Below are positions 286-21,756 of a stretch of 22,521 nt of DNA, piece by piece. This stretch comes from a virus, in IMG/VR virus record IMGVR_UViG_3300033151_000135, positions 1 to 22,521 of that record; one strand, written 5' to 3'. The notes beneath the pieces were generated by a model. The model was given only the letters and a program-made list of their open reading frames with translations, did no database searches and was not told the DNA's origin. How positions within the stretch are numbered: the stretch's first letter is position 1; every line of letters starts with the position of its first letter. The position numbers were made by a program, and so were the translations under genes.

Positions 286-327
286 TAAAAACTTAGAAGC
301 TCCGAGAGCCCTAGACTCTCGGAGCTT
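286..327 (-). terminator. Rho-independent terminator of the leftward operon
   Basis: A perfect 12-bp stem (AAGCTCCGAGAG at 297-308, complement at 316-327) with a 7-base loop lies 6 bases past the stop codon of the zinc-ribbon gene. Read on the minus strand, the stem is followed after five bases by five Ts (291-287). The strong GC-rich stem plus U run at the end of a leftward gene chain makes termination of minus-strand transcription the obvious reading. Confidence 0.85.
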
Positions 328-546: not shown

Positions 547-606
547 TGGTTCCTCCTTTAGGGAGCCTTAATGGTGGCCACTGTGCACTCTATTGAGGAT
601 TCTTAA

Positions 607-1575
607 TTAGACCCGGTATTCTCCGAGTCCGTCAGGGTTGTTATCAAGCACGAGCTTGATAACGTCCACAACAACCTGATCAGGATGCTGTGCGACTACC
701 TGCTCCATGTCCTTTCGGCTCATGGATTTTGGTACTTCGACATCGGGCTTGGTGATGAATGCCTCGACATCTTCGATCTTGACATTCGGTGTTGCATCGT
801 AGAATGCCTTGATCTTTTTGTACCCGAGCCCCTTGAGGTTCAGGTCGCCCTTGACGATTCGGTCAACAATCTTCAGTGACTTCCAGTCACCGTCAAGCTT
901 CAGGATAGCGTGCATATCCTGACGCTGACCACGCTTTGAGATTCCAAGCGTTTCGCCAATTTTGGTCCCACCGTAACATTTCTGATACAGTGTCTTACCG
1001 ATGAGTAGGAAATCGGTTTTGCTCGGAGCTTTCGCACCGAGGACCTTTAAGGTGTTTTCCTTGATGCAAGTGTCCTTGCGATCTTGGGGGTCCGTATAAC
1101 TCTGGACCTGCACCTTTACATCATAGAATCCCGGCATTGATCGCTTTGACGCAATGACATTTGCATCCAAGACGACGTGATTCCGCCGGAATCCGAACAC
1201 ACCTTCATACTTCGGCTTGATGATTTTGCCATCGGCCATGAAGGTCTTCTCGAAGGCGCGCAGCCTTTCAGCCGGGCTTGCCGTGACCAGTTCGCCATCG
1301 ATGACATACTTCGTCTCTTTGACGTTTTCGTCAACGGCCTTTTTGAGAGCGTCAAGACGCTCCTGTCTTGCAGCCATGACAATCTTGGCATCTTCGGGCG
1401 TTATTGCTAACACCTTCAGATATGCACAAGTATCGTCCAGCCAGCCCTTATGCATGGCTTGGATCAAATCCTGCTGATCCTTACGCTCAACGCTCAAGAC
1501 CCCAGTAGGTCTTGAGTAATTCCTGTCGGCGATGTAACCAATCGCTGACATTTTGGTCTTGATGATCTCTGACAT
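607..1575 (-). CDS. ParB-like / helix-turn-helix protein (322 aa), putative
   Basis: The product has 322 residues from the ATG at 1575, preceded by GGAAGGAAC. A TTG start at 1599 would add eight residues but lacks a ribosome binding site. The middle-to-C-terminal part resembles the ParB/KorB DNA-binding module: an ENTLKVLGAKAPSKTD segment, a candidate helix-turn-helix in GTKIGETLGISKRGQRQ, then KIVDRIVKGDLNLKGL. ParB relatives bind DNA in partition or regulation; some phage versions are nucleases or transcription factors. No ParA gene is visible, so partition is not demonstrated. It is the longest gene of the leftward operon and is enclosed by a 25-bp inverted repeat. The family call rests on pattern recognition only; an unrelated early phage protein remains possible. 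Confidence 0.7.
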   Translation of the reverse strand: MSEIIKTKMSAIGYIADRNYSRPTGVLSVERKDQQDLIQAMHKGWLDDTCAYLKVLAITPEDAKIVMAARQERLDALKKAVDENVKETKYVIDGELVTASPAERLRAFEKTFMADGKIIKPKYEGVFGFRRNHVVLDANVIASKRSMPGFYDVKVQVQSYTDPQDRKDTCIKENTLKVLGAKAPSKTDFLLIGKTLYQKCYGGTKIGETLGISKRGQRQDMHAILKLDGDWKSLKIVDRIVKGDLNLKGLGYKKIKAFYDATPNVKIEDVEAFITKPDVEVPKSMSRKDMEQVVAQHPDQVVVDVIKLVLDNNPDGLGEYRV

Positions 1576-1597
1576 CTTTAGTTCCTTCCAAAGTGTC
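1571..1597 (-). promoter_or_regulatory. Start-codon hairpin with Shine-Dalgarno in the loop (ParB-like gene)
   Basis: In the minus-strand mRNA GACACTTT (1597-1590) pairs with AAAG-A-TGTC (1579-1571), an 8-bp stem with one bulged A. The 10-base loop GGAAGGAACT displays the ribosome binding site, and the ATG (1575-1573) lies in the 3' strand of the stem. The 5' strand begins at the last base of the right arm of the bracket repeat, so the two structures abut. Confidence 0.6.
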
Positions 1598-1656
1598 AAT
1601 GACCACCATTAAGGCTCCCTAGTTTCTAGGACGGCTATTGTGTTGCCTCTTGGGTG

Positions 1657-1968
1657 TTAAATATCTAATGTATCTGGGTAGTCCTTGGCCACTTCTTCAG
1701 CAGTTGTGATATCCCGCCATAACATTTTCGAGAATTCTTGAAACTTAGAATCCCAGTCACCGCGACCAAGCCACAGATACCCGCGTGCAATTTCCGTACG
1801 GGCTTGCTGCAAGTGAGCTATTGCATGTGCTACACATTTGAAGCGTTCGGATATAAATAGTTCATCCGAAAGGTTACTTTGCTCTATATAGTGCAGTGAT
1901 GATTGCGCACTATCTAGTTCAAAGATTGCCCCAGTGAACGGGTTAGTGTGTTTTTGTGGTATTCCCAT
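1657..1968 (-). CDS. Hypothetical protein (103 aa)
   Basis: I do not recognise the family. The 103-residue product is soluble and mixed alpha, with HAIAHLQQARTEIARGYLWLGRGDWDSKF in its centre, which looks like two amphipathic helices. There is no signal peptide, membrane segment or cysteine motif. The ATG at 1968 has GAGG five bases upstream, in a 7-bp hairpin (1971-1991). It sits between two other small leftward genes and is enclosed by its own 25-bp inverted repeat. Its place in an early-type operon, opposite to the virion genes, suggests a host take-over or regulatory function, which is inference only. Confidence 0.72.
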   Translation of the reverse strand: MGIPQKHTNPFTGAIFELDSAQSSLHYIEQSNLSDELFISERFKCVAHAIAHLQQARTEIARGYLWLGRGDWDSKFQEFSKMLWRDITTAEEVAKDYPDTLDI

Positions 1969-1970
1969 GT

Positions 1971-1991
1971 TTGCCTCAATTCTAGAGGCAA
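1971..1991 (-). promoter_or_regulatory. Ribosome-binding-site hairpin of the 103-aa gene
   Basis: TTGCCTC (1971-1977) and GAGGCAA (1985-1991) form a perfect 7-bp stem with a 7-base loop. In the minus-strand mRNA the 3' strand GAGGCAA is the Shine-Dalgarno segment, two bases before the ATG at 1968, so the hairpin would occlude it. The 5' strand (TTGCCTC in RNA sense, from 1991 to 1985) is also the inner end of the right bracket arm, which can instead pair with 1643-1649 beyond the stop codon. Confidence 0.7.
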
Positions 1992-2049
1992 CATAATAGC
2001 CGCCCTAGTGTTTTCTAGAGCGGCTGATTCAGAGTGTCCTGAAGGTTAT

Positions 2050-2223
2050 CTAAATGTGTCCTACGGTTCTCTTCGCTATGGTAATTTCCGCAATGCTTAA
2101 CGTCAGATTCCGGTCAGTTATCGGCAAGCCTAAATCTTCACACATTTTCTTGCCGGCTAGTACGAGCATAGCCCGTGCTGATTGTTTCTTGGTGAATTTA
2201 GGTTTGTGATTGAGTATTTTCAT
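2050..2223 (-). CDS. Hypothetical small basic protein (57 aa)
   Basis: I do not recognise this protein. It is 57 residues, lysine-rich at the start (MKILNHKPKFTKKQSARAM), followed by helix-forming sequence. The ATG at 2223 is chosen because CGAGG lies five bases upstream; an in-frame GTG at 2244 would add seven residues but falls inside the ribosome-binding-site hairpin and has no Shine-Dalgarno. It is enclosed by the longest bracket repeat in the window. Basic small early proteins often bind nucleic acids, but nothing here proves that. Confidence 0.65.
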   Translation of the reverse strand: MKILNHKPKFTKKQSARAMLVLAGKKMCEDLGLPITDRNLTLSIAEITIAKRTVGHI

Positions 2224-2245
2224 GGTGTCCTCGTTTCTGGACACC
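2224..2245 (-). promoter_or_regulatory. Ribosome-binding-site hairpin of the 57-aa gene
   Basis: GGTGTCC (2224-2230) and GGACACC (2239-2245) form a perfect 7-bp stem with an 8-base loop directly against the ATG at 2223. In the mRNA, GGACACC contains most of the GAGGA Shine-Dalgarno. The opposite strand GGTGTCC belongs to the right bracket arm and can pair instead with GGACAC in the 3' arm (complement of 2035-2039), freeing the ribosome binding site. Confidence 0.7.
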
Positions 2246-2351
2246 CTGAATCAACCGCCCTAGTTTCTAGGGTTTTCTAACAATCGGTGTTAGGTCCGTG
2301 AAACTCTGTCCGGTCGACGGCGAAACGCCAGTCTATGCTACCCCGACAGTC

Positions 2352-2369
2352 GGCTAGTCTGTGCTAGCC
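2352..2369 (-). repeat. Hairpin over the stop codon of the 81-aa gene
   Basis: GGCTAG (2352-2357) and CTAGCC (2364-2369) pair perfectly around a 6-base loop. The TAG stop (2356-2354) is in the stem. No U run follows on the minus strand, so this is not an intrinsic terminator. CGACAGTCGGCT (2344-2355) overlaps it and recurs inverted at 2613-2624 with one change. Confidence 0.5.
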
Positions 2370-2599
2370 TCACGTTTCGCAGTGCAGAGCACTGCAAAGT
2401 TATGTTGTGCAGTTGCCAGGCGTACAAGTCTCTCGGTGTGCTTGCGCGCCCGTTCGTTACGTTTCTGACGTCTTGTTAGCGTCGACGTCCTAGCGTCCTG
2501 TTGCTCTGCTAGGGCTTGCGAGCTTAGGACGTGACCACCTAGCTTGCGGTTCCAGTGCTTGCAAGCTTTGGCGGTTAGGGTTCTCTGTTTTGTTCTCAT
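2354..2599 (-). CDS. Hypothetical basic protein (81 aa), possibly leaderless
   Basis: The product has 81 residues, rich in Arg and Lys (RRQKRNERARKHTERLVRL in the middle), with no cysteine or membrane motif. I do not recognise it. It is the promoter-proximal gene of the leftward operon. The ATG at 2599 has no Shine-Dalgarno and lies seven bases past the -10 hexamer of a good promoter, so the transcript from that promoter would begin at or very near the start codon. The stop codon sits in a 6-bp hairpin (2352-2369). GC content looks higher than in the neighbouring genes. The reading frame could be spurious, but its position between promoter and operon and its end at the hairpin support it. Confidence 0.55.
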   Translation of the reverse strand: MRTKQRTLTAKACKHWNRKLGGHVLSSQALAEQQDARTSTLTRRQKRNERARKHTERLVRLATAQHNFAVLCTAKREASTD

Positions 2600-2605
2600 A
2601 CTGAT

Positions 2606-2634
2606 ACTATACAGCCAACTGTCGTAAAGGTCAA
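2606..2634 (-). promoter_or_regulatory. Leftward sigma70-type promoter, proximal
   Basis: On the minus strand TTGACC (2634-2629), a 17-base spacer and TATAGT (2611-2606) match the sigma70 consensus closely. The expected start of transcription, about seven bases downstream, coincides with the A of the ATG at 2599, predicting a leaderless mRNA for the 81-aa gene and expression of the whole leftward operon. Confidence 0.7.
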
Positions 2635-2663
2635 GGGAAATGTGAATAATAATAATAGTGTAA

Positions 2664-2681
2664 CCTACCTAATCGGGTAGG
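2664..2681. promoter_or_regulatory. Inverted repeat, possible operator
   Basis: CCTACC (2664-2669) and GGTAGG (2676-2681) flank a 6-base spacer, a perfect dyad 30 bases upstream of the proximal leftward -35 box and within the leader of the distal promoter. The size fits a dimeric repressor or activator site, but no cognate protein is identified. Confidence 0.4.
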
Positions 2682-2750
2682 ATACAGAGAAAGTGAGAAA
2701 AATAATAATTTTGTTTACTTTAATATCCATAGAATCTAGGTTCTAGGAGG

Positions 2751-2780
2751 TTGACCGGCGGAATACGTATCTCGTATATC
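2751..2780 (+). promoter_or_regulatory. Candidate rightward promoter for the late operon
   Basis: TTGACC (2751-2756), an 18-base spacer and TATATC (2775-2780) give a moderate match to sigma70. Transcription would start near 2787, inside the -10 box of the opposing leftward promoter. The match is imperfect and late phage operons often use other factors, so confidence is low. Confidence 0.35.
2763..2777. promoter_or_regulatory. Dyad ATACG-N5-CGTAT at the overlapping promoter starts
   Basis: A perfect 5-bp dyad sits at the predicted start of the distal leftward transcript and inside the rightward promoter spacer. A protein bound here could affect both. It could also be chance, given its small size. 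Confidence 0.3.
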
Positions 2781-2783
2781 TCT

Positions 2784-2813
2784 ATTCTAGTATAGGGTTG
2801 ATGATTTTGTCAA
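2784..2813 (-). promoter_or_regulatory. Leftward sigma70-type promoter, distal
   Basis: On the minus strand TTGACA (2813-2808) is a perfect -35 box, followed after 18 bases by TAGAAT (2789-2784), five of six matching TATAAT. The predicted start is near 2777, giving a leader of roughly 180 bases before the 81-aa gene. A perfect palindrome (2828-2842) lies 14 bases upstream of the -35 box. Confidence 0.65.
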
Positions 2814-2827
2814 GGTGTTAGAGTATG

Positions 2828-2842
2828 CTGTTACAGTAACAG
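2828..2842. promoter_or_regulatory. Palindrome CTGTTACAGTAACAG, candidate operator
   Basis: Seven-base arms CTGTTAC and GTAACAG surround a single central base. This geometry is typical of a dimeric regulator site. It lies just upstream of the distal leftward promoter, a position suited to activation or to repression of rightward transcription. The binding protein is unknown. Confidence 0.5.
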
Positions 2843-2922
2843 GGTGGGTGATACCGGCGTGGTAAGTGGATTAAGGGCACATAATGCTGTCAGAGGGCAC
2901 CCTATTTTGCTACCACCAAAAA

Positions 2923-2990
2923 TCCTAGAACCTTAGTATCTGCCTGTGCAACCTCTAGGAACCTAGGAACCTTAGTGCATATCATCAATT
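2923..2990. repeat. CCTAGAACCTTAG-type degenerate repeats before the terminase genes
   Basis: TCCTAGAACCTTAGT (2923-2937) and CCTAGGAACCTTAGTGCAT (2962-2980) are related to each other and to TCCTAGAACCTTGGTGTAT (53-71), the junction with the first unit of the left repeat array. ATCATCAATT follows at 2981-2990 and also closes the left array (230-239). The shared block may be a binding site on both sides of the leftward operon. Confidence 0.6.
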
Positions 2991-3103
2991 AACACACTCC
3001 ATTGACAAAAGGATTTTTAGTGGAATTGTGGAAAATAATCGAAAAAAGAATGTTACTACAATCGGGAAAGCAACACACTAGATTGTCAAGGGAGCGTGTC
3101 AAA

Positions 3104-3643
3104 ATGGCCGACGTAACTAAAACACACTGTGATGACCCAGATCGCTGTCAGGCAATGACTCAAATTGGTCAGTGTACTAATCTATCAGCAGAAACATCAG
3201 ACTATTGTGCGTTACATGGTGCCAACAGAGCAGCAAAGCGGGATTTTAAGAACTATAGTCTCGGTATGTGGCGAGCCAAGATGAACGCCAAACTTGAGAA
3301 CCCAGAATTCAAAAGCCTGAGAGAAGAGGTTGGGCTTATACGGATGTTGGTTGATTCTCGTTTTACAAAAATTAAAAATGACACCGACCTTATGTTAGAA
3401 AGTCAGGCTATCGCCGACTTGATGATGAAAGCCGAACGCCTGGTCATGAGCTGCAATAAGCTAGAAGCCTCAACCGGGCAACTTATGGACAAGCAAGCTA
3501 TTCTCGTGTACGCTAGCAAGCTCATAGGGTACATTGATGAAACGATCACACACTTCGTGACAGACAAAGAGTTAGCTAAGAAAATCGTGAGCGCCTTGGG
3601 TGACAAAATCATCGAAGCTGCTGCTAATAACGAGTCAGAGTAA
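3104..3643 (+). CDS. Putative small terminase subunit / zinc-binding packaging protein (179 aa)
   Basis: The start at 3104 is chosen because GGGAG lies nine bases upstream; an in-frame TTG at 3002 would add 34 residues without support. The N-terminus carries a zinc-type motif C15-x8-C24-x10-C35-x2-H38 (RCQAMTQIGQC, YCALHG), followed by a long alpha-helical region with conserved-looking KSLREEVGLIRMLVDSR and GQLMDKQAILVYASKLIG. Its position directly before the large terminase gene is that of TerS, which recognises packaging sites on phage DNA. The helical body and possible DNA-binding zinc motif agree with this role, but sequence alone does not prove it. It is the first gene of the rightward operon. 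Confidence 0.7.
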   Translation: MADVTKTHCDDPDRCQAMTQIGQCTNLSAETSDYCALHGANRAAKRDFKNYSLGMWRAKMNAKLENPEFKSLREEVGLIRMLVDSRFTKIKNDTDLMLESQAIADLMMKAERLVMSCNKLEASTGQLMDKQAILVYASKLIGYIDETITHFVTDKELAKKIVSALGDKIIEAAANNESE

Positions 3644-3667
3644 CCCTACAGCCCTACAGCCCTACAG
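3644..3667. repeat. Three tandem copies of CCCTACAG between TerS and TerL genes
   Basis: CCCTACAG occurs at 3644-3651, 3652-3659 and 3660-3667, directly after the stop codon of the TerS-like gene and before the AAGGA of the terminase ribosome binding site. It may be slippage expansion of a spacer or a protein-binding site; nothing decides between these. Confidence 0.9.
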
Positions 3668-3686
3668 CCTAAGGACGGGAACCTTG

Positions 3687-5321
3687 ATGACAGAACTGTC
3701 CCAGCTCTTAACCGATCGCTTAGTCTCTGGCCTGAAAAGGTCAGCGATCACGAAGTGTAGTGAGTGGGCGAACAGATACAGAGTAATGGGTAGCCCATAC
3801 CCAGGTCCATGGACCTTTGATCATCATCCGTGGTTGCGAGAGATGCATGACGCTGAAGGCGAACTGATCATTGGGCAAAAAGGCGCACAGCTAGGCTTTA
3901 CAGAATATGCCCTCAATGAAACTTTCTATGCCATCGATATGAAAGGCCAGAGCGTCCTCTATATATTGCCCGCGAGCACACCTGACGCGAAAGACTTTGC
4001 AACAAGTCGTTTCGATCCGGCACTGGAAGGGTCCAAGCACCTTAGAGAACTATTTACTGACGTAAAGAATATTCACCACAAAAGAGCCGGTCACGCAAAT
4101 TTATTCATCAGAGGAAGCCGCAGTCGGTCGCAACTCAAAAGTGTTCCAGTAGCCAAAATAATTTTGGACGAAGTAGATGAAATGGTCCAAAGAAATATTC
4201 CATTAGTATTTGAGCGTGTAAGTGGCCAAATCGAAAAACAGATTATGATGATAAGTACACCCACAATCGAGAACATGGGCATCAATGAATACTATAATAG
4301 ATCAACACGGGAACACTTCTTTTTCAAATGCCCACACTGTAGCAAACTAACAGAATTGACTTTCCCCGATTGTCTGGTTATTACAAGCGAAGACCCTGAT
4401 GATGCAGACATCATGAATACACATATCGTATGCAAAGAGTGTAAGCATCCATTAGATCACACTACAAAACCCGACTGGCTGAAAGACGGTCAGTGGGTTG
4501 CAGAAACTCCGGACAAAATGTCTCGCGGATTCCACGTTAATCAACTATATAGCTGCACGGTAGAACCATATAAGCTTGCGATACTATACTTGCAGAGCCT
4601 TACAGACCAGACCAAAGAGCAAGAATTCTACAATAGTAAGCTAGGGCTTCCACACGCCGTTAAGGGTGCGCGCGTAACCGAAACCGAAATCAAAGAAGCA
4701 ATGCGCGAATATATGATGGGACCAGTGCAAGGCTTGATAACAATGGGCATCGACGTTGGTAACACTCTTCACTATGAAGTATGCAGCTGGGAAATTATAC
4801 CTTCACAGACAGCTGACTTAAATAGCAGTGCCAAGGCTAAAGTAATCTGTTCAGGAGGCGTCCAGCACTTTGAGGAGCTTGATGACTTACTCAGAGACTA
4901 CAATGTAGTTACGGCTGTAATTGATGCCAACCCCGAAAAGCGTAAAGCCTTCGAATTCGCACAGCGCAACTACGGTAAAGTGAAACTTTGTTATTACGGT
5001 AGAAACGTACGTGGCAAAGACATCAGCGTAAGCGCCAAGGAATCACACGCAATCTCCGTGGACCGAACAAGTTGGCTTGATGCCTCACTGGGTCGGTTCC
5101 GCAACAAAACTATTACATTACCACGAGACATTGCCCAGGAATATAAGACACATATAATGGTACCCACACGCATATACGAGAAAGATGCAGATGGCAACCA
5201 AGTGGGTAGGTACGTCAGTGGCACAAAAGCTGACCACTTGGCCCATGCACGAAATTACTGTGAGATAGCTCTGCCGTTGGCGGCAGGGGCTGTTGCTAAC
5301 TACGACATACAAAATTACTAG
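3687..5321 (+). CDS. terL: Terminase large subunit, GpA-like (544 aa)
   Basis: This is the ATP-driven motor and nuclease that packages phage DNA through the portal. The start at 3687 follows AAGGA. The ATPase part has a deviant Walker A, GQKGAQLGFT (residues about 63-72), with the lysine at the front of the loop as in lambda gpA relatives, and Walker B IILDEVDE (D161, E162). A zinc-binding insert has C215-x2-C218 and C249-x2-C252. The C-terminal nuclease with RNase H-like fold shows candidate acidic residues D356 (MGIDVG), D413 (VIDANPE) and D516 (KADHLAHARN). Family (phage terminase GpA type) and gene order, followed nine bases later by the portal gene, agree. Length is within the family's range though shorter than lambda gpA (641). 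Confidence 0.95.
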   Translation: MTELSQLLTDRLVSGLKRSAITKCSEWANRYRVMGSPYPGPWTFDHHPWLREMHDAEGELIIGQKGAQLGFTEYALNETFYAIDMKGQSVLYILPASTPDAKDFATSRFDPALEGSKHLRELFTDVKNIHHKRAGHANLFIRGSRSRSQLKSVPVAKIILDEVDEMVQRNIPLVFERVSGQIEKQIMMISTPTIENMGINEYYNRSTREHFFFKCPHCSKLTELTFPDCLVITSEDPDDADIMNTHIVCKECKHPLDHTTKPDWLKDGQWVAETPDKMSRGFHVNQLYSCTVEPYKLAILYLQSLTDQTKEQEFYNSKLGLPHAVKGARVTETEIKEAMREYMMGPVQGLITMGIDVGNTLHYEVCSWEIIPSQTADLNSSAKAKVICSGGVQHFEELDDLLRDYNVVTAVIDANPEKRKAFEFAQRNYGKVKLCYYGRNVRGKDISVSAKESHAISVDRTSWLDASLGRFRNKTITLPRDIAQEYKTHIMVPTRIYEKDADGNQVGRYVSGTKADHLAHARNYCEIALPLAAGAVANYDIQNY

Positions 5322-17307: not shown

Positions 17308-20300
17308 ATGCCAACAAAAGTAACAGACATCAAACTTAAAGTATCAGGGCTAGGTGACCTTGAAAGACTTGTCGGTACCAGTGCTAAATATGTACAAGTA
17401 CAAAAGTTACTTGAGAATGAACTCAAAAAAGCCAATGCAACAAGTTCAAAATATCTATCAACAGTAAAATTAGTATTGGGTATTGGTGAGAGACTTGAAA
17501 TACAAACTAAGAAAACAGAAGAAGGCATTACAAAACAAACTGCCGCGTTGCAGATTAATATTGCAGCAAAAGAAAAAGCGGCTGCTGCTGCAAAGAAACT
17601 AGCAATATCAGAATCAGAAGCCGCCTCAAAGATGGCAGCAACTGCAGCAGCAATGTCATCAAAAACAGCACAGCGTGTTGGTGCGCGCCTCACACGCGTA
17701 ACATCTACAGAAGGTGGCACAGTTGATGAAATAACACGTCTCAAAGAATCTATTTCTGCAGTAAGAGAGTATGTAAAAGTTAATGAGATAAGTTACGCCA
17801 AAGTCGAACAAATCAGGAAACGGGTTGCAGAAGGGGATATTAGACAGTATGATAAACAGGATGCGGCATTACAGAAACATTTACAGGCGGTAAAGAAGGC
17901 AAACGATCAACTTGGTGCGTCAGGAAGAAAGTTAGCAGCCCAACGCACTAGGCTACATGCGCAGGCAATTGCAGAAGATAGGCGGCTGAATGCTGTCCGT
18001 GCAACATTACACGCTCAGGCAATTGCAGAGGATAGGAAACGACAAGCATCATCAGCGGCACTTGTGGCACAACGTAAGCACGAAGCCGCTGCACTATTAG
18101 CATTGCAAGCACGTACAAAAGCGTTGTCTGTAAGCGGTGGTGCGGCAAAAGCAGATGTAATCAGCTACCATGCACAGATAACTAAATTGCGTGAATATGT
18201 TAGAGCAAATAAGATCAGTGCGGAGGACATCAACAGAATATGGGGCAGGGTTAAAGACGGAAACATTCGGACATATGGTAGAGTGTTAGATGGCTTGCAA
18301 TCTAAGATGTACAAACTACAGAATGCTACAGCCTTGTCAACTACAAAAGCCAAGAAGCACGTTGAGTCACTAATATTATCTTGGAAGAATATGTCACGGC
18401 TCATAGTTGCCCAGTTGGTGCGTCGAGCGATTAGTTCATTCTTAATTTCAATGCGTAGGGCTATTGATGAAACTAGACAATTTAGCATGGCAATTGCTGA
18501 ATTGCGTACAATATCCCAGAGTGCACAATTGTCACAAGAGCAGTGGCGAGAAGGCATATTGTCTTTATCAGATGCCTTTGGCTTCACAGCCTTAGATCAA
18601 GCAGAAGCTGCATACCAAACACTTTCTAACCAGGTGGCAGAAGGCGCAAAGACTTTTGAATTCTTAGCCGAAGCAAATAAGTTTGCTGTGACAGCAGCAA
18701 CAGACTCCGCAACAGCGGTCAATTTGCTTACTGCAGCCATTAACTCTTTTGGCATGACGACTAATGACACTGAGCATATTGCAGCCGTACTGTTTAAGAC
18801 TATTGAACAGGGGCGTGTACGTGCGAGTGAGATGGCTAACAGTCTTGGTGATGTTGGTATCTTGGCGCATCAGCTTGGTGTGACTCTTGAAGAACTTACT
18901 GCCACTATCTCAACGCTAACAATCAACGGTGTCAAATACAATAAGGCGTCGACACAGCTTCGTGGCATAATGATCAAACTCATCAAGCCCACTAAAGAAA
19001 TGAAAAAGTTCTTTAGAGAACTTGGTGTTGCTACTGGCGAGCAAGCCATCCAAGTGTATGGACTATCTGGGTTCTTGGCAGAAATGGCAAAGAGAACTAA
19101 AGGCTCAACAACTGAACTTGGTAAGCTCATCAATAGGGTACGAGGCATTTCTGGTGCACTAGCCCTTACTGGCAATGGCTTTGAAACATTCCAAAAGAAC
19201 TTAGCACTTAACATCAAGAGTATGGAATCCTACAAACAGGCAGCTAAGGATGCTTTTGACAATGTTGGTCGCAGAGCCACAATCCTGCAACAACGTCTCA
19301 AGAATGTGTTTGTACGTGAGATAGGAGTTAACTTACTAGACGGTATTGTTAAGTTCTCTGAGTCTGTTGGTGGGTTAGATACAGTATTATCTGGGATGAT
19401 AAAGACAATAGCCTCACTGCCAGCAGTATTGGCACTTGCTGGTGCGGCAGTCACATTGTTGACAAGGCGGCTTATTGCAATGGCTGCTGCTAATCCAGCC
19501 GGTGCAATTTTAGTTGGCTTTACACTATTGGCAACTGGAATAACAGCAGCACTCAATAAAATGGTTGACGATATAAATAAGCTTGAGCGTGCAGAGGTAG
19601 CTGCACGCAAGAGAGCTGTGCAACGAGCTAAGAAGCAAGTAATAGCAACACATCGAATATTCTTGCAGAGCGCGATTGCACGAGTTGGGATAACTAGTAG
19701 AGCAATTGCTAGTATGATTGGTGCAGAGAATAAATACTTTGACAAAGTTGCGGCCAATTATGTTAAATTAGACAAAGTGGTAAAGAAGACGTATGCAAGC
19801 ATAATAAAATCAGCAACCAAGGCTCTAAGTAAAATGGACAAAGCCATTGACAAAAGTCGCAGCGCGTTGTCAACGATTGAAAGTGACATTGTTGATTTGG
19901 CATTAGAACAAGTTGAATTTAAGTTTGAGTTAAAATTAAAGGGTCTTGATGATGTTGGCAAACTAAAAGAACTGCGCGCAGAGATTCAGCGTGTACAGAA
20001 AATTGCATCAGAAGAGGCACGTGGTGGGGATACAGCATCAGCCAGTGAAACATTAAAACGAACGCTCACACTTTGGGATAAGATCAGTGACATCAATGAT
20101 AGGATTGCAGAGCGTAAAGAAAAGCAAGAAGAAGACCTACAGAACCTGCAAACAAAAGGTGTGGAGGATGTTGGCAAAGCGAGTGAAAAGCTTGTAAAAA
20201 TTAGAGAAGCTGGCGTAAAGAAAATATTGGACATTGAGAACAAAATATTTATCATACGCCAACAGATTGCTGCGCGTGATGAAGCAAAACGTAGAGGCTT

Positions 20301-21756
20301 AACAACAGATAGGCAAGAGACAGGCAGTTCTCTTGGCTTGCAATTAGCTAAAGCACAAGGCAAACTAGCACAGGCAAGATACTCTCTTGAGGACAAGCTA
20401 ACTGCTGCAGTGACAGCAAGAAATAACATAGAGTTCAAGAACACGGAAGCAAAGCGTGTTGCTAAGCAGTTGATTGAGAAAACCACTGCTGCAGAGATAA
20501 GCCAGAATGATATCATAAAAGAAAAGGATAAGTTAATAGCTGGAATTCAAAAGATGCGCTACGAAATGTTGGCGCAAGAGCGAACACGCTTGCAACTTAT
20601 GGAGAAAGAACGAGCAATATTGCGGGCTAATAGTGCGGAACTTACTGCCTTGGTTGGTAAGACTGCTGGGTATGACGTCACTGGTAAGACTGCTGATGAA
20701 TTATCTGGGCATGCAAAATTACTAGAGCGTCAGCTTGTGTTGGCTAAGCGCATGAATATTGAAGAGAGTGTACGTACCAAAGAGATTAAAGAACAAATTG
20801 CAGCTGTACAAAAATTGGCAACGACAACAGTGCGTACAGATGAATTACAGAAAGCGGCAAAAAATATCCAAATAGGCTTGGAAACTTTCAAAAAGACAGT
20901 GGCTGCACAGAAAGCAGTTGATGTTGAAATAGCAAAGAATCTTGCAGGCCGGCAAGTAACTTCTGAGAGAGAACTTACTGCGTTATTAGCCGCCGTGGCA
21001 AAAGCAAAGGCGAGTGCAATAGGCGATTTACCAGCATTACCAACCTTGGGTACAAGTGAAATAAAAGAAAGAATCAAGGACCTTACTGCCTTAGAAGCAA
21101 TCATCAAGAAAATAAAGCTTGACCCAAAAGCCTTCAAGGATGTGGCAGCAGTTAGCGCAGCGCTAGCACAGCTACAAACTGCTTCGGCGATACCTTTTAA
21201 TGCCAAAGATTTGGTAGTAAGTTTTGGACTACTGCGTGTTAACCTAGAGAACATAAAGAAAATACTCATAGACCAAACGGCTACTGGAAATTTACAGACA
21301 CAGTATGAGGATTTAGCTAAAAAGTATTCAGCGTTGACGGCAAAAATGCTCAAGACTGAGGCAGCAGCAAAAGAAACACAGAAGGCTACAGCAGGAACTG
21401 CTTCTAACTACATAAGCATAGTCAAGAGCATGGAAAGGCTTAACAACTTACTAAATTTTACTAATGTAGATGCTAAAAAGAATTTTGCAACTGGTGGGCA
21501 GGTTGGTCAGGACACTGTGCCAGCAATGCTTAGCCCAGGTGAGTTTGTGATGAATGCTTCAGCTAGTAAACGGTTCTACAGCCAACTACAGACAATGAAC
21601 AACCAGCCTGTGCAACGATTTGCTGATGGTGGCCCAGTGAACAACTACGGTGATTTTAACATCAGCGTACCGTCGAATGGAAATAAGAATCTAGACATTG
21701 TTGCAATAGGCCGTGGGCTACAGAGAGCCATACGTCAAAGGAGTGTAAAACTGTGA
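17308..21756 (+). CDS. Tail tape measure protein (1482 aa)
   Basis: This protein sets tail length and is ejected with the DNA. AGGAG precedes ATG 17308. Residues about 1-340 are coiled-coil rich with two internal duplications. Residues about 390-620 match the TP901-type tape measure core (FSMAIAELRTISQSAQLSQE, TALDQAEAAYQTLSNQVAEG, KFAVTAATDSATAVNLLTAA, GVTLEELTATISTLTINGVK). A hydrophobic stretch at about 690-765 (TIASLPAVLALAGAAVTLLT) probably inserts in the host membrane. Long coiled coils follow. The C-terminus has the typical GGQVGQDTVPAMLSPGEFVM followed by a second FADGGPV. At the usual 1.5 angstrom per residue it predicts a tail of about 220 nm, an estimate by proportionality only. 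Confidence 0.95.
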   Translation: MPTKVTDIKLKVSGLGDLERLVGTSAKYVQVQKLLENELKKANATSSKYLSTVKLVLGIGERLEIQTKKTEEGITKQTAALQINIAAKEKAAAAAKKLAISESEAASKMAATAAAMSSKTAQRVGARLTRVTSTEGGTVDEITRLKESISAVREYVKVNEISYAKVEQIRKRVAEGDIRQYDKQDAALQKHLQAVKKANDQLGASGRKLAAQRTRLHAQAIAEDRRLNAVRATLHAQAIAEDRKRQASSAALVAQRKHEAAALLALQARTKALSVSGGAAKADVISYHAQITKLREYVRANKISAEDINRIWGRVKDGNIRTYGRVLDGLQSKMYKLQNATALSTTKAKKHVESLILSWKNMSRLIVAQLVRRAISSFLISMRRAIDETRQFSMAIAELRTISQSAQLSQEQWREGILSLSDAFGFTALDQAEAAYQTLSNQVAEGAKTFEFLAEANKFAVTAATDSATAVNLLTAAINSFGMTTNDTEHIAAVLFKTIEQGRVRASEMANSLGDVGILAHQLGVTLEELTATISTLTINGVKYNKASTQLRGIMIKLIKPTKEMKKFFRELGVATGEQAIQVYGLSGFLAEMAKRTKGSTTELGKLINRVRGISGALALTGNGFETFQKNLALNIKSMESYKQAAKDAFDNVGRRATILQQRLKNVFVREIGVNLLDGIVKFSESVGGLDTVLSGMIKTIASLPAVLALAGAAVTLLTRRLIAMAAANPAGAILVGFTLLATGITAALNKMVDDINKLERAEVAARKRAVQRAKKQVIATHRIFLQSAIARVGITSRAIASMIGAENKYFDKVAANYVKLDKVVKKTYASIIKSATKALSKMDKAIDKSRSALSTIESDIVDLALEQVEFKFELKLKGLDDVGKLKELRAEIQRVQKIASEEARGGDTASASETLKRTLTLWDKISDINDRIAERKEKQEEDLQNLQTKGVEDVGKASEKLVKIREAGVKKILDIENKIFIIRQQIAARDEAKRRGLTTDRQETGSSLGLQLAKAQGKLAQARYSLEDKLTAAVTARNNIEFKNTEAKRVAKQLIEKTTAAEISQNDIIKEKDKLIAGIQKMRYEMLAQERTRLQLMEKERAILRANSAELTALVGKTAGYDVTGKTADELSGHAKLLERQLVLAKRMNIEESVRTKEIKEQIAAVQKLATTTVRTDELQKAAKNIQIGLETFKKTVAAQKAVDVEIAKNLAGRQVTSERELTALLAAVAKAKASAIGDLPALPTLGTSEIKERIKDLTALEAIIKKIKLDPKAFKDVAAVSAALAQLQTASAIPFNAKDLVVSFGLLRVNLENIKKILIDQTATGNLQTQYEDLAKKYSALTAKMLKTEAAAKETQKATAGTASNYISIVKSMERLNNLLNFTNVDAKKNFATGGQVGQDTVPAMLSPGEFVMNASASKRFYSQLQTMNNQPVQRFADGGPVNNYGDFNISVPSNGNKNLDIVAIGRGLQRAIRQRSVKL
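17953..18036 (+). repeat. Internal duplication in the tape measure gene (LHAQAIAEDR)
   Basis: Bases 17953-17982 and 18007-18036 encode the same ten residues (216-225 and 234-243), 26 of 30 bases identical, period 54 bases. A longer-range duplication of about 31 residues (residues 151-181 and 293-323, both with REYV and a G-[DN]-I-R-x-Y ending) brackets it. Confidence 0.85.

Follow-up and report, generated by a model that had tools for sequence, protein, structure and literature searches.

What could enclose three successive genes of a phage, one by one, between the arms of long inverted repeats, and do such arms act in the DNA or in the transcript? The question is raised by the leftward genes of the window, by which we mean the whole 22,521-base stretch of DNA analysed here, corresponding to one complete IMG/VR record. 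The window contains rightward head-tail genes, with TerL at 3660-5321 (PHROG terminase, E=4e-84) and an ORF of tape-measure size at 17308-21756. To the left of the head-tail genes lies a cluster of leftward genes at 2354-2599, 2050-2223, 1657-1968, 607-1572 and 334-546. The three central genes are bracketed by inverted repeats; the upstream gene (2354-2599) and the last one (334-546) have no bracket. The last gene, on the minus strand, encodes a zinc-ribbon-like protein of 70 aa, and its Shine-Dalgarno sequence (AAGGAGG) directly adjoins the 3' arm of bracket 1. A sigma-70-like candidate promoter of the leftward unit was located on the minus strand at 2784-2813 (11/12 consensus), in a region where the number of promoter-like sites is not above chance, and an intrinsic-terminator-like hairpin of 14 bp with a T-rich tail (297-327, minus strand) would close the unit. 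Just past it, at positions 60-219, a 22-bp unit (ACCTTGGTGTATTAATGTTCAG) is repeated about 7.5 times in what may be a set of iterons or an origin. CTAG-rich near-palindromes occur outside the brackets at 38-60, 2725-2750 and 2920-2980 (for example CTAGGTTCTAGG and CTAGGAACCTAGGAACC), and the enrichment of CTAGG across the window was not significant. An Rfam search of the window gave no match, and PADLOC returned weak zinc-ribbon matches only.

All bracket arms are given in the sense of the minus strand. Bracket 3 is formed by a 5' arm at 2235-2263 (RNA CTAGGGCGGTTGATTCAGGGTGTCCAGAA) and a 3' arm at 2015-2043, with 25/29 Watson-Crick pairs plus three G-U pairs, around a small gene of 57 aa at 2050-2223 whose start lies 11 nt inside the 5' arm and whose stop lies 6 nt ahead of the 3' arm; searches of Pfam and PHROG gave no significant match for this gene. 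Bracket 2 joins the 5' arm at 1984-2008 (RNA CTAGGGCGGCTATTATGTTGCCTCT) to the 3' arm at 1626-1650, with 23/25 Watson-Crick pairs, and encloses a gene of 103 aa at 1657-1968. In bracket 1, the 5' arm at 1597-1621 pairs with the 3' arm at 559-583 at all 25 positions, 23 of them Watson-Crick and two G-U, and the enclosed gene at 607-1572 encodes 321 aa from an ATG. These are the three arm pairs of the original prediction, with one leftward ORF in each, and they were recovered exactly as it described them. Their inverted-repeat scores are 21, 21 and 20. The remaining inverted pairs in the 300-2700 region score 10 or less, and 1000 dinucleotide shuffles of the same region gave a top score of 16 and a 99th percentile of 14. 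The shared CTAGGG outer ends, also part of that prediction, are indeed present in the window; they are specific to this phage, as its relatives end otherwise. At the junction between brackets 3 and 2 (1998-2025, minus strand) the common CTAGGGCGG outer ends would allow a hairpin of 11 bp between the 3' arm and the next 5' arm. Pairing of this kind, between a 3' arm and the 5' arm that follows it, is possible at 5/19 junctions, mainly among paralogous arms, and an attenuator was rejected as a general arrangement.

Based on TerL searches we collected about 100 distinct contigs, in which inverted repeats were then sought without bias. The design recurs in 14 phages with related terminases, none of them an isolate and with TerL about 50-60% identical (L005, L006, L007, L013, L014, L019, L020, L031, L033, L039, L064, L078, L128 and L131). 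Altogether about 39 gene-enclosing stems surround leftward genes upstream of TerL. The maximum of six bracketed leftward genes per phage was reached in L033 and L078; L019, L020, L031 and L131 have three brackets each, the first ones of L019 and L020 and the middle one of L131 being without a clean ORF assignment. The arm sequences are wholly different between phages and usually also between genes. The large bracketed proteins of L019 and L020, for instance, are 51% identical and their arm sequences share nothing. Comparison with related phages gave the outcome anticipated for an RNA stem, namely brackets that are kept with both arms altered together. L005 and L006 each have a small gene whose bracket is nested in a wider one that spans both this gene and a large one; otherwise successive brackets adjoin, separated for the most part by -3 to +15 nt and in a few cases by as much as about 70, and crossing brackets are absent. 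Most large leftward genes (at least 290 aa) upstream of TerL are enclosed. L008 and L037 have a comparable large leftward gene and no long stems, and in L090, L078 and L128 a large leftward gene has merely 12-13 bp around it. On the TerL tree the presence and absence of brackets is scattered, with 10 changes, not different from the result with shuffled labels, in a sample where several of the "absent" contigs end before the bracket region.

The affinities of these phages and of their leftward proteins are distant. Isolates reach at best 26% identity to the window TerL, and a DNA-level search of the leftward region against phage isolates gave no match. Genome-contig matches were limited to three MAG fragments whose labels disagree. 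At the position equivalent to that of the 321-aa gene, L005 and L007 encode a ParB_N-like protein; homology with the 321-aa protein was not established, the alignment being weak and the identity to others 15-22%. An alignment of five large leftward proteins left no usable stretch. Scans with the large leftward proteins yielded few kin, too few for orthologous arms to be compared by ordinary covariation statistics, and the arms themselves are too divergent for a column-wise analysis; the evidence for pairing comes from the architecture, a G-U bias and one paralogous pair of brackets.

Several local features accompany the leftward genes of the relatives. Right past the stop of its 354-aa leftward gene, which has no long bracket, L008 carries a local hairpin of 25 bp (3148-3201), and it has further local repeats at 1242-1933. 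L011 holds, at 476-1510, an unbracketed relative of the ParB-like gene of L005 on the same strand as TerL. A 749-aa leftward ORF of L004 (5304-7553) is rich in GGTCC-type codon repeats in a collagen-like pattern and produces many spurious inverted repeats. Palindromic TAAGTCCTTATGTAGCAAGGACTTA elements are repeated beside the bracketed genes of L128 (4303-4873). In L033, GGCCTCCGGCCTC is found at 1764-4191 in many dispersed copies; several 5' arms have it as their inner half, and there it is complementary to the SD sequence GGAGG. A GGATAGACCAACA-like motif recurs between successive brackets of L078 (2600-4010) and, being complementary to the first 5' arm in its outer half (GTTGGTCTATCC), would allow alternative multi-gene closures there.

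In 49 sequences, made up of the window and 48 loci, we then scored how well the 5' flank of each ORF pairs with its 3' flank. Among leftward genes upstream of TerL, 20/141 reached a score of at least 14 vs 1/414 for swapped flanks; the first fraction is approximate because the 141 genes include spurious ORFs and mis-chosen starts, which caused several clear brackets to be overlooked, and because the repeat array of L068 accounts for one of the positives. TerL and the downstream rightward (structural) genes gave 0/501 with a comparable stem, and the upstream rightward genes gave 3/367, taken unsorted from loci that include repeat arrays such as that of L068. The stems span 12-32 bp and are typically of 25 bp (mean 25.8 bp, sd 3.1, for 30 stems), short ones of 12-18 bp being those of L078, L128 and L031_g1. 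Their arms lie 140-1580 nt apart. The 5' arm ends just upstream of the Shine-Dalgarno sequence, with the start codon 10-21 nt inside it in 30/35 genes (median 17 nt, for start codons chosen by eye from SD and position), and in most genes the stop lies about 0-30 nt ahead of the 3' arm. Several of the statistical tests reported here draw on common data.

Arms placed just outside the genes could also be the inverted ends of mobile or invertible gene cassettes (morons) acting at the DNA level, an alternative already raised in the original prediction, and in some phages the arms are paralogous within one genome, as in L033, L131 and the outer ends of the window. This model predicts shared ends or genes in both orientations. 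The ends are common neither to phages nor to the same kind of gene, however, and wherever a pairing clearly spans a gene, that gene is a leftward ORF. The nested brackets of L005 and L006 and the bias towards G-U pairs in the sense strand described below are likewise at odds with cassettes, and no recombinase or transposase was recognized in a search of the leftward ORFs of the window. We regard this origin as highly improbable. Oppositely oriented copies of an operator or promoter that flank genes by chance would give a similar picture. They do so in the isolate FP_Epona (L143), where inverted 21-bp copies in the leftward cluster at 48106-49556 surround leftward genes and resemble parts of repeated promoter/operator sites, which makes this locus a useful look-alike control. 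Yet FP_Epona reuses one sequence, whereas the window and most of its relatives have a gene-private pair at the two ends of each cistron, and for these an explanation by operator copies is extremely improbable. The isolate MT835543, included as a further control, showed no inverted repeats around a gene.

The differences between the arms point to the transcript. In the minus-strand RNA of the window six of them become G-U pairs, one becomes A-C and one more is a transversion. Over 39 stems, the transition differences in the sense RNA are G-U rather than A-C by 35:10 (p=1e-4), or by 29:9 (p=8e-4) when the window is left out, both types of transition having been given equal penalty. Counted stem by stem, 18 favour G-U and three favour A-C. 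Strand-biased mutation could account for part of this bias; a strong mutational asymmetry is unlikely because, at fourfold sites within bracketed genes, the skews of the sense strand are small (GC -0.15, TA +0.13). The paralogous brackets 2 and 3 of L131 share a core with three differences, each a G-C pair changed to A-U and each compensated in the opposite arm. Such near-perfect arms might be neutral quasi-palindromes whose likeness is maintained through template switching or gene conversion, without a role for the pairing, since copying between arms would also preserve complementarity. That process is hard to reconcile with the restriction of the arms to leftward genes and cistron ends, with their tight spacing and with the bias of their differences to G-U in the sense strand, and we consider it quite improbable. 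The designed stems are also predicted to be stable. Their mean pair probability is 0.96 in 25 cistrons of less than 800 nt, and the minimum free energy structure of the entire 2-kb leftward RNA of the window holds 28/29, 24/25 and 25/25 designed pairs, that is 77/79, all three stems being present. Every test that could be run agrees with the proposal of one RNA stem per cistron under selection for pairing in the transcript, and the arms are very probably RNA elements that close each cistron at the RNA level.

We propose that a long-range stem of its own would close each protein-coding cistron on the leftward polycistronic transcript, so that the message would be a chain, and sometimes a nest, of separate closed loops. 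The 3' arm, once transcribed, would capture the 5' arm of its own gene, and both ends of the cistron, being thereby base-paired, would be isolated from their neighbours in translation and decay. The stem may in addition be an entry site for the host double-strand RNase III, freeing individual messages as in rRNA operons. In about one gene out of three the 5' arm might, with its inner part, mask the SD/AUG until the 3' arm exists, and in this subset the long stem would also unmask the start, because the 5' arm would hide SD and AUG before the 3' arm is made. As a whole explanation, transcript-level enclosure of cistrons with insulation, RNase III entry and partial unmasking is the one towards which we lean, by a modest degree. 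That RNase III processing or stability/insulation is the main role is nearly, though not quite, an evenly balanced proposition. Processing into single messages would be the most economical specific function, because stems of about 25 bp with arms at most 1.6 kb apart resemble the rRNA stalks. It would not be obligatory, because the stems of L078, L128 and L031 have just 12-18 bp, which looks short for RNase III, whose processing stems take some two helical turns, or about 22 bp.

The partial unmasking can be followed in the window itself. In the 57-aa gene the inner 5' arm (GTGTCC) could form an alternative local hairpin (2218-2245, minus strand) with the SD region (GAGGACACC), which is followed by the ATG; its duplex of -18.2 kcal/mol was equalled in 0/200 shuffles. 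The predicted unpaired probability of the initiation region of w_g3 is 0.70 with the 3' arm and 0.36 without it. A second alternative hairpin, TTGCCTC/GAGGCAA, would cover the SD of the 103-aa gene (1969-1993, minus strand), and gene 1 of the window showed no initiation-region complementarity. Over the 35 genes, the complementarity of the 5' arm to the initiation region exceeded that to windows in the interior of the same ORF in 9/35 at p<=0.05 (Fisher 2e-4, or 4e-4 without two paralogs), and the mirror-image test at the stop side gave no signal. Scrambling of the 3' arm in silico gave 7.3 pairs between arm and initiation region vs 3.5 on scrambling of the 5' arm (p=0.004), and mean start accessibility dropped from 0.49 to 0.43, a small change (p=0.04). 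Predicted masking is strong in w_g3 and L064, where in-silico removal of the 3' arm lowers start accessibility from 0.56 to 0.14, and weaker in L006_s, L128_a and w_g2. As a set, the candidate metastable SD-masking hairpins are significant in these models, and about one gene in three shows a clear case.

Taken further, these observations would make the main role of the brackets that of a cis toehold switch, in which the 3' arm displaces a hairpin hiding SD and AUG so that complete cistrons alone are translated. In its favour are the GTGTCC/GGACAC and TTGCCTC/GAGGCAA complementarities of the window, a stretch in L064 that extends over about 14 bp, and the pair ATCCTACCC/GGGTAGGAT in L007, together with the excess over same-ORF windows, the negative stop-side control and the predicted masking of w_g3 and L064. 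About two thirds of the genes, gene 1 of the window included, nevertheless have no significant complementarity, the change in accessibility is small on average, and free 5' arms mask overall no better than shuffled arms (p=0.14). We therefore find it unlikely that the switch is the main role; since the complementarity is confined to a subset of genes, unmasking is better seen as a real but non-universal addition to cistron enclosure.

The recurrence of the wrapping in distant relatives with unlike sequences suggests that single genes within a common message are isolated or controlled by a means that has so far not been described. Rather tentatively, dsDNA phages might have a new operon control with private 5' and 3' strands, in which closure of the cistron by the 3' strand, the last to be made, would unlock its start or isolate it. 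Each cistron would then be translated, processed or protected only as a finished unit, independent of its neighbours, and the arm strands could evolve free of sequence under structure only. If the working that we infer is correct, these phages make each cistron of a common message self-contained by structure alone, which would be a simple natural design rule for gene insulation in synthetic operons. The brackets also make testable a long-standing question, the independence of neighbouring genes of bacterial mRNAs in translation and decay, and as the arms seem free to vary while pairing holds, tests by compensatory mutation would be straightforward.

Among known systems, the closest in geometry are the rRNA operons, for which one-stem-per-gene folding is textbook knowledge. 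Young and Steitz, in a 1978 paper listed among the references of PMC8708148, are said to have described that the genes of an rRNA operon are closed by long-range stems that serve as RNase III processing stalks. As in the phages, a private long-range stem closes each gene of a polycistronic transcript and the arms lie hundreds to thousands of nt apart. The rRNA stalks, however, enclose structural RNA, whereas the phage stems enclose ORFs, the SD and the stop of which lie within the loop; RNase III cleavage is known for the rRNA stalks and would be a predicted step for the phage stems. The idea that no operon with one stem per gene had been described therefore has to be narrowed, as it fails for the rRNA operons and stands for protein-coding genes: in a full-text search of the open-licence literature gene-private stems around protein-coding cistrons were not described. 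The synthetic toehold switch works through a trigger strand, by which the hairpin over SD and AUG is displaced; in the phages the trigger would lie in cis past the stop codon, and in a subset of genes only. Type I toxin mRNAs such as hok and aapA combine a long-distance interaction of the 5' and 3' ends with metastable SD-masking hairpins (PMC6733600), and the phage cistrons resemble them in the pairing of their ends and, in a subset, in a predicted co-transcriptional SD hairpin. Yet the full-length toxin mRNA is inert, with its SD sequestered in the long-distance pairing, whereas the phage SD lies inside the loop and free of the stem; the phage brackets concern several genes of one operon, and the antisense RNA and 3' truncation of the toxin systems have no known counterpart here. 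The ribosome termination structure found downstream of stop codons (PMC7518266) is similar in that stable pairing right after the stop could insulate a cistron, but it is local, whereas the phage 3' arm has its partner 140-1580 nt off, at the 5' end of its own gene. Finally, in E. coli operons mRNA structure is ORF-centric and diffuse, each ORF being its own structural unit (PMC5318159). The phages share this principle of one structural unit per ORF and differ by a discrete closing stem. The novelty is the per-gene closing stem around protein-coding cistrons, in a geometry that is known from rRNA operons.
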